Below are positions 3,151 to 40,331 of a stretch of 64,000 bases of DNA, piece by piece. The notes beneath the pieces were generated by a model. The model did not search any database. It was not told the origin of the DNA and saw only the letters and a program-made list of their open reading frames with translations. Origin of the DNA: Streptantibioticus cattleyicolor NRRL 8057 = DSM 46488 (lineage in GTDB: Bacteria > Actinomycetota > Actinomycetes > Streptomycetales > Streptomycetaceae); assembly GCF_000240165.1 (NCBI RefSeq), contig NC_017585.1, forward strand, positions 620,001-684,000, written 5' to 3'. The translations under genes and the position numbers were made by a program. How positions within the stretch are numbered: the stretch's first letter is position 1; every line of letters starts with the position of its first letter.

Positions 3151-4344
<1,194 letters not shown>

Positions 4345-35140: not shown

Positions 35141-35186
35141 CACACCACCCCACCGCCGGGCACGCGGCCGGGGCCCCGGACCCCGG

Positions 35187-35245
35187 TCTACCGCGCCCCC
35201 ATGGACGCCCGCCGCTTTCCGCGGGAGAGGCGGACACCCCGTCGG
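35187..35245. repeat. Direct repeat copy A, relic of a methyltransferase 3' end
   Basis: Bases 35187-35213 are identical over 27 bp to 37573-37599, and the similarity continues to 35245/37632 with a few changes and one indel. In copy B this sequence is the 3' end of the PIMT-like methyltransferase gene; here it encodes (minus strand) only SRGKRRASMGAR and a stop, with no gene body. The two copies bracket the kinase-peptide-radical SAM cassette. The other 90 bases between the TetR stop and the kinase gene hold no gene. Confidence 0.8.
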
Positions 35246-35290
35246 ACATGACTCGTTGAGCGCGCACACGAGCGGAGTCGGCACCGGGGC

Positions 35291-36097
35291 TCAGCCGGCC
35301 TTCCGGTACTCCGCCCAGCGCCGGGACGCGTCGAAGACCGTGGCCGTCCATGGGTCCGGGTCCACCCCGGCGATTTCCTCCCACAGATTCGCGGTCGCCA
35401 GCGCGAAGGCCGTGACGGCTTCCGGCGCTGCTGTCCTCCATGCCGGAACACGTGCCGCCCACTCCTCCGCCGACCGGGGCTCTTGCTTGCCCGCCGCCAT
35501 GAGCCACACGACCCAATGGGCGGCGTCCAGCCATGCCGCGCCCTTGGATGCCCACGCCCAGTCAACGAGATAGGCGGGACCGTTCACGAGGACGTTCTCG
35601 TTGTTGAGGTCCGTGTGAAGCAGGGAGTCACCCGCGAAGTGCGCAACGTCCGTGGGCTTGGCCGCGTACGCCGCGAGGCGCTGTTCCGCGTGCCGCAACT
35701 CGATGGGCGGGCAAGGGACTTCCCCCAGTCGGCAGAGCAGATCAGCCACCTTCGGCAGATCCGGTGAACCTGCCGAGTAGTCGGCGTGATGGCCGTCCAG
35801 GGCTTCGAAGCCCAGGAGGACCCATCCGGCGTCTTCCACCTGCCACAAAAGCGCGGGCGCGATACCGCGAAGGTACGGGTTGACTTCGGCTTCCCGGTGC
35901 TGGGTCCACACCCGCCCGTGGTCGGCTCTCAGACCTTTGATGAAGAAGGACCCGTCAGCGGTCGAGATCCGCGCCGCGATCTGACTGTTGTAGCCCTGGA
36001 TTACCATCTCGGTCCTGAGAATCTCCCCGGCGTGAGATTGGACGCCGACGAGCACGGCGGGCGGTAGATCATCGAACGACATTCGCTCAGTTGCCAC
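35291..36097 (-). CDS. Aminoglycoside-phosphotransferase-like kinase
   Basis: 268 residues from GTG 36097 (an ATG at 36082 is also possible). Protein-kinase-like fold of the APH/choline kinase group: SFFIKGLRAD contains the ATP-binding Lys, LLHTDLNNENVLV is the HxDxxxxN catalytic loop and VDWAWAS the metal-binding Asp. It phosphorylates a small molecule or possibly a peptide; antibiotic resistance is not implied. It follows the small peptide gene on the minus strand in a lower-GC cassette and is the last gene of the set. Confidence 0.78.
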   Translation of the reverse strand: MATERMSFDDLPPAVLVGVQSHAGEILRTEMVIQGYNSQIAARISTADGSFFIKGLRADHGRVWTQHREAEVNPYLRGIAPALLWQVEDAGWVLLGFEALDGHHADYSAGSPDLPKVADLLCRLGEVPCPPIELRHAEQRLAAYAAKPTDVAHFAGDSLLHTDLNNENVLVNGPAYLVDWAWASKGAAWLDAAHWVVWLMAAGKQEPRSAEEWAARVPAWRTAAPEAVTAFALATANLWEEIAGVDPDPWTATVFDASRRWAEYRKAG

Positions 36098-36190
36098 GGC
36101 GCCCAGACTCTCATACAGCGGCCCGTGCGGGTCCCGCGGCGCAATCGCGCCACGGAGCCCGCACGGAGCCCCACAGGTGTACCGACGCGG

Positions 36191-36364
36191 TTACCGGTAC
36201 GGGTTGTCGTCGTTGCACCCCGGCGTGGTGCCCTCGGTCAGCGACTCGACGTCGTCCACGATGACCAGTCCGGCGGGCTCCGCGAGCTTCGGCCGTTCGG
36301 CCGGGGCCGGAACCAGACTCAGCGCGGGACGGGAGTGGGTGATCACCACTGCTGCAGCGCTCAT
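36191..36364 (-). CDS. Small peptide, candidate RiPP precursor
   Basis: 57 residues. Its ATG overlaps the radical SAM stop (ATGA at 36364-36361), so it is translationally coupled to that gene. The N-terminal two thirds (VVITHSRPALSLVPAPAER, AGLVIVDDVESLTEG) look like an acidic leader, and the last residues TTPGCNDDNPYR form a short core with one Cys, two Asp, two Asn and a C-terminal Tyr-Arg. No signal peptide. Position beside a SPASM radical SAM enzyme and a kinase supports a precursor role; modification is inferred, not shown. Confidence 0.65.
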   Translation of the reverse strand: MSAAAVVITHSRPALSLVPAPAERPKLAEPAGLVIVDDVESLTEGTTPGCNDDNPYR

Positions 36365-37317
36365 GTGATGTGGTCTCCGTTTCCGTGTTGGCAGTAAGTG
36401 TTCAATGGTGCCTTCGCTTCCTGGTACGCCTTGGCGAGTGGACGGCATACCCGGCACGTTGCCGAGAGCCGACAGCCGCTACAGCCACCGGAGCGAAGCA
36501 TTTCGGCATCTGCGATCGCGGGCAGACGCAGGAGGCCGTCAAGTCCCTCAGCCATGAGGTTGACGGGGTTCTCTCGACCTACCTTGCACATGGTGGCGAA
36601 CCCGTGGGGGTCCACGTGAAAGAAGGCATGACCCGCCGGACAGCCTTTGAAGACTGTGGACTTGTCCAGGAATCCCGGAGCCTGGGCAGCCAGTGGTTCA
36701 GGTTTACCGTCGTATGTCGGGGAAATGTTCGCGTACTCGGTGTACGTGTACGCGTACTCCTCGGCAAGGTCCCGCATGGCTTCCACTTCGTGCGCGTTGT
36801 GCTTGGTGACGATCAACGCCAGTTCGAGCGGCACTCCGGCCTCTTTGGCGGCCTTGATGAGCATTCCCAGCCCGTAGGCCGTCCGATAAGAATGTGCGAA
36901 GTCCCGGTCGATGGTGGGCTCACCCCCCGTGAACTGGAGCCACAGGACTCCGGCGTCACGAAGCATGAAGAGCAGCCGATCCTTTTCTTCCCGCGACAGG
37001 CCTTCAAACTTCCGTTCGGCAAGGTAGCGGTGCTCACAGTTGAAGTTGCAGCCCTTGTTGATCTCCCACGTCGCCCGACTGTAATTCAATGAGGTGAGCG
37101 GACGAACCAGAACGGTCCTCTCTGTCGGGCACCCGGCGAGGTCGATCCCCCATGCCTGCCGTGCCGCGTCGACCAGCCACCCCGGCACCGTCTGCCTGTC
37201 GGCCACGGCATCGGAGAGTTCTTTGTACATGATGTGCGGAATGTGCATCCCTTTACGTGCACCGGGACGCGCGACGATGAACTTGTCACCCTGCGGGCTG
37301 GCGATTGCCTGGTACAC
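36361..37317 (-). CDS. Radical SAM/SPASM peptide-modifying-type protein with one cluster Cys replaced
   Basis: 318 residues from GTG 37317. The SAM-cluster motif reads CNFNCEHRYL: Cys90 and Cys94 are present but the third Cys position is Arg97 (codon CGC, one transition from TGC). FTGGEPTID follows normally. Between YRTAYGLGMLI and KAAKEAGVPLELALIVTKHN the family usually has some 50-60 more residues, so part of the barrel appears to be deleted in frame. The C-terminal SPASM-type cysteines are intact (GCPAGHAFF, MCKVGRE, CSGCRLSATCRVC, YCQHG). Both lesions argue for an inactive or altered enzyme although the frame is open. Base composition is lower in GC than the flanks. It is the first gene of the cassette. 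Confidence 0.78.
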   Translation of the reverse strand: MYQAIASPQGDKFIVARPGARKGMHIPHIMYKELSDAVADRQTVPGWLVDAARQAWGIDLAGCPTERTVLVRPLTSLNYSRATWEINKGCNFNCEHRYLAERKFEGLSREEKDRLLFMLRDAGVLWLQFTGGEPTIDRDFAHSYRTAYGLGMLIKAAKEAGVPLELALIVTKHNAHEVEAMRDLAEEYAYTYTEYANISPTYDGKPEPLAAQAPGFLDKSTVFKGCPAGHAFFHVDPHGFATMCKVGRENPVNLMAEGLDGLLRLPAIADAEMLRSGGCSGCRLSATCRVCRPLAKAYQEAKAPLNTYCQHGNGDHIT

Positions 37318-37572
37318 AAGGCGGCCTCCGACGCGTGTGGCTCCTGGCCCTGCAACAGCGGCGGGACTTGCGAGCTTTAAGCAGCTTCAGAATGCGGGAA
37401 GTTGATGTCCAGTGGCCTGTCCGGAACCGAACGCAGGGCTTGCGCGGTTGCACCGGGAGACCGGGTGGCCATATCTCAAGAACAGTGCGGCCCGAGACCT
37501 CTTCGAGCGATGGAGTCTGGTAACCCCGGCCAGGCTGATTCCCCGTTGAACACGCGGATGTCCGTACCAGGA

Positions 37573-37632
37573 TCTACCGCGCCCCCATGGACGCCCGCCA
37601 CCTCCCTCGGGAGAGGTGGACAACCCCGTCGG
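37573..37632. repeat. Direct repeat copy B, at the 3' end of the PIMT-like methyltransferase
   Basis: The partner of 35187-35245, with 27 identical bases and then a diverged 30-base tail. It contains the methyltransferase stop codon and its last 18 or so codons (HLSRGRWRASMGAR). The offset between copies is 2386 bases. Confidence 0.8.
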
Positions 37633-38719
37633 GCGTCAACCGGACCCGCGCGCCGAGCAACGGCAGCGCGCCTTCCGCGTTGAGTCGGTTGCGGATGCGT
37701 TCCAGGGCGTCCCAGAGTCGTTGCGGGCCGCTTTGGTGCACTTCGGGCGGGTCGGTGCGCTCGGCGGAGGCGCGTGCCCATGAGCCGTCGGGGTGGGCCA
37801 GGTAGGCGGTGCGTTGGTGTCCGTTGGTCTCGTAGTCCAACTCGACGCCGGGGAGGGTGACTTCAAGCATGGAGCGGAGTTCCCACGCGTTGCCCACGTC
37901 CACCACGGGGTAGCGGCCGGTGCTGGTGTGTTCTCCGTGGGCTTGGCGGGCGAGGGTGAGCAGGTCGGTGAGGGCGGGCGGGTGGTCGGCGCCGGACCGG
38001 GTGGGCATGAAGCCGGCCATGTCCCGTTCCACCTGGCCGATCACGTCCCCGTGGCGGTCCTTCCAACCGGTGATGATCAGGGACGTGCGCGCGAGGGTCG
38101 TCGCGATCCGGCCTCCGTAGGCCAGCGCGCCGACCACTGGCCGGAGCCCCGGGCCGGGGGTGAGCGCGACCGTGGACACGATGCGGTCGTACGTTCCGGG
38201 GACCTCCCTGGTGGCGTCCGCGGTGATCAGTGTCGGGTAGCAGTGCATGTCGGCGAGGCGTTCCCCGGCCGCGCGGACGAGGTACGGGTCCACGTCCAGG
38301 CTGGTCACGCACGCGTCGCCGAGCCGGTAACAGGCGTACGCGGCGAGCCCGCCGGCCCCCGTGCCCAGGTCGAGGAGGGAGAGTCCGTCGCCGAGTCGGC
38401 CGTGCCGCAGCATGCGCACGACCAGGCTCGGCAGCGTGGCGGACGACGTGGGCCGTCCCTCGGGACGGTCGTCGGGTTCGGCCTGGTCGGCGTGGAGCGG
38501 GCCCACCCTGGTGACCAACGAGCGGTCCGCGTAGGCCGCTTCCGCCCACGCCTCCGGGTCGCTCGGCCCGTCACGGAGTTCCCACGCCCCGGAGCCGTCC
38601 CGTTCCCACCAGCGCGGGACCAGCTCGTGACGGGGAACGTCGGCGACGGGGACGAGCCACCGGGAATCGGGGTCGGTCACCTGGTCCGCGAGCGCGTTCG
38701 CTCGGCTGTGCCAATCCAT
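37574..38719 (-). CDS. PIMT-like (protein-isoaspartate-type) methyltransferase
   Basis: 381 residues from ATG 38719. The N-terminus WLVPVADVPRHELVPRWWER and the SAM motif SLLDLGTGAGGLAAYACYRLG, followed by VTSLDVDPYLVRAAGERLADM and YDRIVSTVAL, match the O-methyltransferase family related to PCMT and found beside Streptomyces XRE/DUF397 and RiPP loci. The C-terminal 150 residues form an extra domain with LWDALERIRNRLNAEG. The substrate may be a peptide; this is inferred from relatives. It lies 257 bases upstream of the radical SAM gene on the same strand. Confidence 0.78.
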   Translation of the reverse strand: MDWHSRANALADQVTDPDSRWLVPVADVPRHELVPRWWERDGSGAWELRDGPSDPEAWAEAAYADRSLVTRVGPLHADQAEPDDRPEGRPTSSATLPSLVVRMLRHGRLGDGLSLLDLGTGAGGLAAYACYRLGDACVTSLDVDPYLVRAAGERLADMHCYPTLITADATREVPGTYDRIVSTVALTPGPGLRPVVGALAYGGRIATTLARTSLIITGWKDRHGDVIGQVERDMAGFMPTRSGADHPPALTDLLTLARQAHGEHTSTGRYPVVDVGNAWELRSMLEVTLPGVELDYETNGHQRTAYLAHPDGSWARASAERTDPPEVHQSGPQRLWDALERIRNRLNAEGALPLLGARVRLTPDGVVHLSRGRWRASMGAR

Positions 38720-38824
38720 GATGCCTTGCTTTCTTCGTAAGTCTTCGTAAGTGGGGTCACACGCTTCGGTGTTGGCGGGAGCGCACGTTGCGCCGACGCC
38801 GCGAAAGGCACAACCGTGCGCGGC

Positions 38825-39187: not shown

Positions 39188-40024
39188 GTGAACCGCAAGG
39201 AGTTGAACCCGGAGGCTTCGCCACAGGCGGCCTACGGCGCGCGTCTGCGCAGCTTGCGCGAGGCGCGCGGCTGGACCCAGGAAGAGCTGGCCTCCCGGTT
39301 GGAATATTCCAGCGTGCATATTTCGGCGGTGGAAACTGGTCGGAAGCCTCCGACTCTCCGATTCTCGCGTAGTGCGGACCAGGCCTTCGGCCTGACGGGT
39401 TCAGCAGACGCGTTCGAACGCTACTACCGCGAGCTCAAGCACGGTGCGTTGCTGGAGGGGTTCCCGGAGTACGTCAAGTGCGAGGGCCGGGCGGTGGAGA
39501 TCCGGGTCTTCGAGATCGGGATCATCCCGGGACTGTTGCAAACCCCGGAGTACGCACGGGTGCTGGCCGACAGTGCCATGCGCCGGGGAGCCATCACCCC
39601 CGAACAGGCGGAGGAACGGGTCTCGCTCCTGACCGAGCGGCAGGCAGCACTGGTACGGGACCGGCCGCCGATGGTCTTCGTGACCATGGACGAAAGCTGC
39701 ATCCGCCGCCCCGTCGGCGGACCCGCTGTCATGGACGCCCAACTCGCTCGCCTGGTGGAGTTCGCTCAACTGCCCAACACACTGCTCCAGGTGGCACCGT
39801 ACGAGATGGGCGAGCGCCGCACGTTCAACCTGCCCGTCTACCTGCTGACGCTGCCGGACCGATCGGTGATCTGCTACGCCGAATCGCAGGCACAGGGAAA
39901 CCTGGACCGAGAAACTACATCCGTGGTGCCCATGTTGACGGCCTATCATCAACTACAGGCCGAAGCGCTGTCGCAGGCGGCGTCCGTGGCGATGATCGAG
40001 CAGGTACGAAAGGGCATCTCGTGA
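39188..40024 (+). CDS. XRE-family regulator with DUF5753 domain
   Basis: 278 residues from GTG 39188, with GGGGGGAAC upstream. The helix-turn-helix is RLRSLREARGWTQEELASRLEYSSVHISAVETGRKPP; the long C-terminal part (IGIIPGLLQTPEYARVLAD, then RPVGGPAVMDAQLARLVEFAQLPNTLLQVAPY) is the DUF5753 ligand-type domain. It overlaps the DUF397 gene by GTGA. Such pairs are abundant in Streptomyces, partly linked to development and antibiotic control (bldB/whiJ-like systems). It is divergent from the cassette and could regulate it. Confidence 0.92.
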   Translation: MNRKELNPEASPQAAYGARLRSLREARGWTQEELASRLEYSSVHISAVETGRKPPTLRFSRSADQAFGLTGSADAFERYYRELKHGALLEGFPEYVKCEGRAVEIRVFEIGIIPGLLQTPEYARVLADSAMRRGAITPEQAEERVSLLTERQAALVRDRPPMVFVTMDESCIRRPVGGPAVMDAQLARLVEFAQLPNTLLQVAPYEMGERRTFNLPVYLLTLPDRSVICYAESQAQGNLDRETTSVVPMLTAYHQLQAEALSQAASVAMIEQVRKGIS

Positions 40025-40230
40025 CGACCGAATCCCCCCGCTGGTTCAAGTCCTCCCACAGCGACAACGGCGGCGACTGCGTCGAGGTCGCCACCAACCT
40101 CGTCGCCTCGCGCGGCGTGGTCCCCGTCCGTGACTCCAAGGACCCGAGCGGAGCGGTGCTGCGCTTCCCGGCCGACGCGTTCGCCTCCTTCGTGGCGGGC
40201 GTGAAGGACGGCGAGTTCGGCACCATCTGA
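40021..40230 (+). CDS. DUF397-domain small protein
   Basis: 69 residues from GTG 40021, overlapping the regulator stop. The signature is complete: RWFKSSHSDNGGDCVEVA, VPVRDSKDPSGAVLRFPADAFASFVAGVK. DUF397 proteins act with their XRE neighbour, probably as a partner or antagonist as in WhiJ-like systems. A strong hairpin follows. Confidence 0.95.
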   Translation: MTTESPRWFKSSHSDNGGDCVEVATNLVASRGVVPVRDSKDPSGAVLRFPADAFASFVAGVKDGEFGTI

Positions 40231-40255
40231 CCCGTCCGGTACCTCGTCGGCGGCG

Positions 40256-40300
40256 AAGGCCCCGCCACGTTCCCGTACCCGGGAAGCACGGCGGGGCCTT
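40256..40300 (+). terminator. Strong nested hairpin after DUF397
   Basis: AAGGCCCCGCC pairs with GGCGGGGCCTT, and inside it TTCCCG pairs with CGGGAA. It lies between convergent genes and probably serves both strands. Confidence 0.8.
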
Positions 40301-40331
40301 GGGCCGCCTCGCGGGCCGTAGGCGAACGCGT

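Follow-up and report, generated by a model that had tools for sequence, protein, structure and literature searches.

In the radical SAM superfamily, the loss of a cluster cysteine abolishes SAM cleavage. Among the described systems, SkfB (PDB 6efn), the sporulation killing factor maturase, carries a PDB title that makes it a RiPP maturase, and its system is not known to have a kinase partner. BlsE (PDB 7vob) is a cytosylglucuronate decarboxylase, the substrate of which is a nucleoside sugar and not a peptide. The haloarchaeal pseudo-SAM/SPASM proteins of TIGR04347 have, by their family name, a degenerate SAM domain. Lastly, according to passages of a 2026 paper (PMC13097080), some graspetide clusters co-occur with a PIMT and with DUF397/DUF5753 pairs, and the mining of such pairs is suggested there.

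The DNA analyzed here, called the window, is a stretch of 64,000 nucleotides of the megaplasmid of Streptantibioticus cattleyicolor NRRL 8057 (G000:C1:620001-684000). It contains what looks from the sequence like a RiPP cassette, consisting of a gene for a radical SAM/SPASM enzyme (rSAM gene), a precursor gene and a gene for an APH-like kinase (Table 1). Precursor and kinase look intact. The rSAM gene is very probably a copy, recently inactivated, of a gene for the radical SAM/SPASM modification of a small ribosomal peptide.

Table 1. Features of the cassette and its surroundings (positions in the window)
Feature	Position	Strand	Remark
Direct repeat, copy 1	35176..35240	+	Vestige of the 3' end of a methyltransferase gene, lying downstream of the kinase
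APH-like kinase	35291..36097	-	K54, E69, H161, D163, N168 and D179 present, conserved in 14 of 14 aligned copies
Precursor-like peptide	36191..36364	-	57 aa, ends GCNDDNPYR; ATG overlaps the rSAM stop (ATGA)
Radical SAM/SPASM peptide-maturase gene, apparently defective copy	36361..37317	-	Open frame; 318 aa (nearest relative: 373)
Junction of the 165-nt in-frame deletion	36852..36858	-	Ambiguous to the base owing to a short imperfect repeat (TCGAG/TCAAG in L022)
Codon 97, Arg	37027..37029	-	Third cluster Cys in 91 of 91 relatives with this region
Direct repeat, copy 2	37562..37626	+	Formed by the 3' end of the intact methyltransferase gene; lies upstream of the rSAM gene
PIMT-like methyltransferase of the neighbouring cassette	37574..38719	-	TIGR04188-like, 202.7 bits vs cut-off 380
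XRE/DUF5753 regulator	39188..40024	+	Divergent from the methyltransferase
DUF397 protein	40024..40227	+	Paired with the regulator

The nearest relative of the rSAM gene is the intact copy of S. pacificus (locus L022), which is 87% identical and was used for the comparison with the described systems. SkfB was its best structural match (Foldseek E 4.3e-13) and also had a profile match (E 8.4e-14), but the identity is 17%, and L022 reached 50.8 bits on TIGR04403, compared with a cut-off of 300. BlsE was the best sequence-profile match (E 5.2e-19), but here L022 scored 65.7 bits against a cut-off of 400; the nearest solved proteins by profile were BlsE, SkfB and PqqE. The window protein had 22.6 bits on TIGR04347 (cut-off 525) and thus no sign of membership in that family. 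The listed matches to NCBIfam radical SAM equivalogs were all under the cut-off, both for the window protein and for the relatives L022, L014, L055 and L043. The genes next to the cassette, i.e., the methyltransferase, DUF5753 and DUF397 genes, resemble those described for graspetide clusters in passages of PMC13097080, and some relatives of the rSAM gene also adjoin DUF397/DUF5753 regulator pairs. However, when the list of open reading frames was read by eye, no ATP-grasp gene was recognized beside the methyltransferase gene, and the rSAM cassette is no graspetide locus. With relatives that partly carry such pairs, it fits the mining suggestion made in those passages.

The sequence-only reading had described a radical SAM gene with the cluster motif C90-x3-C94-x2-R97 in place of CxxxCxxC, an in-frame gap of about 50-60 residues, intact SPASM cysteines and an otherwise intact remainder. 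All four observations held. Alignment to full-length relatives placed the gap between I154 and K155 and gave it a length of exactly 55 residues, or 165 nt, corresponding to residues 155-209 of the S. pacificus homologue. The edges of this stretch in L022 read TCGAG and TCAAG, and slippage or microhomology is a plausible origin of the deletion because this imperfect repeat of five bases borders it. The six C-terminal cysteines C244, C279, C282, C288, C291 and C309 were invariant in an alignment of 18 rows that included the window, and the remainder of the gene is little changed (dN/dS 0.067 to L022). No stop codon and no frameshift were found in the gene, and the length of the deletion is a multiple of three. 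The Pfam radical SAM model gave 15.8 bits for the window protein versus a cut-off of 29.5, Pfam SPASM gave no match at E up to 1, and the 28 matches listed in a search of the own genome with PF04055 included none at this locus. Complementation by a second, intact copy was also considered, but a protein search of the own genome (8,095,515 bases in two contigs) matched only the rSAM gene itself.

The structural consequences of the deletion were predicted with AF2. The model of L022 (pTM 0.73) has barrel strands at residues 81-85, 126-130, 153-158, 179-184, 219-224 and 246-250, and its N-terminus consists of three strands and two helices (residues 4-56), which on the model would form an RRE-like domain. 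The deletion covers most of the predicted beta3, alpha3, beta4 and most of alpha4, so that two of the six predicted barrel strands are lost, together with 20 columns that are invariant in 17 relatives, among them the stretches LTNGSRL and P-H-K-x-T-V-S-x-Y-G-A. The model of the window protein has four of the six barrel strands (pLDDT 64, pTM 0.62); over its residues 1-70 the confidence is fair to high (pLDDT blocks of 69-95). Foldseek with L022 yielded 105 matches at E up to 0.001, among them SkfB, BlsE and SuiB at E 4e-13 to 8e-9. With the window protein, only five matches were obtained at the same threshold, and the E-value for SkfB was 2e-5, compared with 4e-13 for L022.

Whether relatives share the two lesions was analyzed in a census of 101 distinct loci, which remained after seven duplicates had been dropped from 108 (19 from a contig search, 29 from genomes of the same family with the own copy left out, and 60 from stronger family matches). 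The family search covered 394 genomes, at least 104 of which had a match at E<=0.001, many of them weak; of these family matches the stronger ones entered the census, and weak or distant copies are under-represented in it. Loci from the viral collection and plasmid matches were left out. The viral collection held four related loci, one of them full length (L173, IMGVR_UViG_2740891882_000002), with 49% identity to the rSAM protein. The motif region is kept in 91 of the 101 loci, and the third cysteine is present in every one of them (a script found 90, and L162 was the 91st). The region is absent in the other ten; in L027, one of these, the first two motif cysteines are present and the gene breaks just ahead of the third. 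Relatives with both a replaced third cysteine and the barrel deletion would have pointed to a real subfamily, but none of the 101 loci combines the two features. On the sequence evidence, the window gene is a defective copy and does not represent a subfamily.

A full-length, unbroken rSAM gene was found in 85 of the 101 relatives, and the gene is apparently damaged in the remaining 16 (L024, L027, L031, L038, L052, L054, L111, L115, L121, L129, L141, L153, L164, L166, L168 and L169), although some of these copies, e.g., L141 and L164, resemble single frameshifts and could be draft errors. The script had flagged 17 genes, but L146 was counted as intact, since a second rSAM fragment in the vicinity had caused its flag. 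Barrel deletions of their own occur in L031 and L038, that of the latter being internal, in frame and 153 nt long. L054 (826-1989) has independently lost 75 nt in frame, i.e., 25 residues including the whole CxxxCxxC motif, and its precursor and kinase are intact.

The substitution pattern was used to estimate the age of the lesions. Between the rSAM genes of the window and of L022, dS was 0.784 and dN 0.052. When the changes were polarized with L026, L023 and L009, ten amino acid changes fell on the window lineage and five on L022, while the synonymous changes were nearly balanced (13 versus 15). The 10:5 split is small and by itself weak, and it may be a lineage effect and not damage, because the kinase gene of the window lineage has a similar excess under the same polarization (7 versus 4 amino acid changes; 2 versus 4 synonymous ones). 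Among the 126 columns without variation in the other 17 rows, three carry a substitution in the window, in addition to the 20 such columns that are deleted; when each of the other 17 rows was tested likewise over 126-132 columns, 0 to 6 substitutions were found. In simulations of neutral substitution, the frame was still open in 56% of cases at 0.02 substitutions per site, in 6% at 0.1, and in none at 0.39. From dN/dS, the invariant columns and the open-frame simulation we infer that most of the divergence from L022 accumulated under selection and that the lesions are late.

Three points favor a recent loss of function in a gene with its frame still open: the two features occur together in none of the 101 loci, the remainder of the gene is conserved, and the deleted part belongs to the core of the barrel. 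In intact relatives, the RRE-like N-terminal domain would hold the leader of the precursor, radical chemistry on the cysteine-containing core peptide would begin at the [4Fe-4S]/SAM core, and the adjacent kinase would then act on the product, perhaps on the tyrosine of the NPY end. Judged by what is known in general of the superfamily, either lesion alone, the arginine at the third cysteine position or the loss of 165 nt, should abolish SAM cleavage. Both would have arisen recently compared with the split from the S. pacificus copy, and the frame would still be open since few mutations have accumulated after them. An overlap of the rSAM stop codon with the start codon of the precursor may couple the translation of the two and thereby put additional selection on the frame.

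This overlap leads to the alternative that survives best, namely that the frame and not the protein is selected: ribosomes must reach the ATGA to start the precursor, and in-frame lesions persist preferentially. The window (36361-36364) and 81 of the 100 loci tested have a 4-nt overlap of the rSAM stop with the next start, as ATGA or GTGA, and the in-frame internal deletions of L054 and L038 point in the same direction. However, L024 and L168, in which kinase and precursor are present, keep only the C-terminal part of the rSAM gene with the ATGA overlap retained, and the broken copies L121 and L169 lack the overlap and nevertheless still have kinase and precursor. Furthermore, chance alone makes one deletion in three an in-frame deletion. 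As a separate explanation, selection on the frame is therefore possible but rather unlikely; it is compatible with recent inactivation and not exclusive of it.

It is improbable that the truncated protein has been retained as a pseudoenzyme, i.e., as a binder of the leader peptide or a scaffold that uses the RRE-like domain and the SPASM part and does not need the SAM cluster. The open frame, the retained SPASM cysteines, the N-terminal domain, modelled with at least fair confidence, and the low overall dN/dS to L022 would agree with such a role, and so would the independent in-frame loss of the motif in L054. Nevertheless, the combination of features is unique to the window among all loci compared, the deletion disrupts the predicted barrel, and selection before the lesions occurred explains the low dN/dS. 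Thus, of the two readings that had been offered from the sequence alone, early decay under an open frame is supported, while no positive evidence was found for a protein working without the SAM cluster. That the protein is still an active radical SAM enzyme with an unusual two-cysteine cluster site is extremely improbable, since nothing further than the retention of C90 and C94 speaks for it, but beta3 to beta4 with their invariant stretches are gone. The apparent exception is thereby closed: the gene is in all probability a broken copy and not a radical SAM enzyme that can dispense with its third cysteine, and it illustrates that an open frame can conceal a dead maturase.

An origin of the lesions in sequencing or assembly has a negligible probability, as revealed by a second assembly of NRRL 8057, which was the only other record of the species that was found. 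The region 35200-38800 is 100% identical at the DNA level to plasmid pSCAT (NC_016113.1) of the same strain, and the rSAM genes agree in every letter. Nearby, NC_016113.1 differs from the window by three mismatches and two gaps across 9,963 bases, and the megaplasmid sizes are 1,812,548 bases (own record, by subtraction) and 1,809,491 bases (NC_016113.1). Because the nearby sequence differs, the two records are separate assemblies, both of one strain, and their full agreement on the rSAM gene makes a sequencing error very unlikely. About 0.4 kb near 39949-40325, around the DUF397 gene, is a tandem double in NC_016113.1 and single in the window.

The cassette itself is more interesting than an ordinary recent loss of function in its rSAM gene. 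In the relatives a short precursor gene comes after the rSAM gene, and in 71 of the 101 loci the kinase gene comes next. The window precursor was aligned with 42 relatives, four of them duplicates, and the end of the precursor was readable in 98 of the 101 loci and unreadable in three. Pfam APH (PF01636) matched six of 14 kinase copies, weakly (best E 6.4e-5), and the window kinase was unmatched at E 0.01; a profile search gave no solved relative. Residues H161, D163, N168 and D179 are presumably the APH catalytic motif. A GNAT gene resembling that of L179 is present in 27 of the 30 loci that lack the kinase, and in no locus of the 101 do GNAT and kinase genes occur together. All 71 kinase loci have a precursor that ends in [NQ]PY. 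At the 25 readable GNAT loci the end is NPH in 22 cases and NPF in three, and at two loci with neither enzyme it is F and Y, respectively. In four loci (L118, L121, L130 and L133) a CSC core occurs together with NPY and the kinase, and therefore the tyrosine tracks the kinase and not the cysteine pattern.

Repeated coevolution was considered as the reason for the link between tyrosine and kinase, but this was weakened by the rSAM tree (96 rows, the window included), which requires a single change between kinase and acetyltransferase, although the support of the split is only 25. The association of the kinase with [NQ]PY may thus go back to one historical event. That the rSAM gene is lost more readily than the kinase gene was also considered, but this was weakened, since the cases are too few for a difference to be claimed: among the 71 kinase loci, the rSAM gene is damaged in eight and the kinase is split in three (L140, L143 and L160), one more kinase being cut by a contig end. 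Some of these cases are single frameshifts in draft genomes, for which assembly errors may be responsible. A kinase flag at L016 was a spurious second match, and this kinase was counted as intact.

Literature searches yielded no description of the cassette, and passages of PMC8939145, PMC13097080 and PMC7159879 contain none. It is a speculative and quite unlikely proposal, taken as a whole, that the cassettes represent an undescribed RiPP family in which one maturase is combined either with a kinase that phosphorylates the tyrosine of [NQ]PY or with an acetyltransferase at NPH/NPF ends, and in which strains repeatedly lose the radical step and keep precursor and kinase as non-producers with a resistance or tolerance function, the dead frame coupling the translation of the precursor. 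The maturase family lies outside the named NCBIfam equivalogs, and a kinase or an acetyltransferase stands in the same slot with a matching last core residue. The pairing of enzyme and last residue offers a concrete guess about the target of the second enzyme.

The methyltransferase gene upstream of the rSAM gene was rejected as a member of the cassette, because no matching open reading frame was present in 48 loci of rSAM relatives (flanks of 4 kb in most of 19 loci and of about 1.5 kb in 29), and because it has its own conserved neighbours elsewhere. The set of methyltransferase, DUF5753 and DUF397 genes is found again on the other contig, and genome G271 also has it; the methyltransferase gene at G000:C2:5645163-5646305 is 88% identical to that of the window and has the same neighbours. 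On this side, the DNA similarity to L022 ends at the start codon of the rSAM gene. Five close relatives (L009, L012, L022, L023 and L026) have a conserved open reading frame upstream of the rSAM gene, which in L022 lies at 3450-3845 and has no Pfam match. It was not found in the genome of the window (best E 0.14 with the L022 version), where the methyltransferase gene stands in its place.

The two copies of the direct repeat are 85% identical over 65 bases and bracket the cassette of rSAM gene, precursor and kinase. Similarly, the cassette of L022 has a complete copy of an alcohol-dehydrogenase-like gene on one side and a partial copy on the other. Flanking direct repeats were found in three of 17 relative loci tested, i.e., in L022, in L023 (61 bases, 80%) and in L026 (22 bases, perhaps by chance). 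Because repeated pieces of neighbouring genes flank the cassette in the window and in some relatives, the cassette may move with such pieces or recombine via them.
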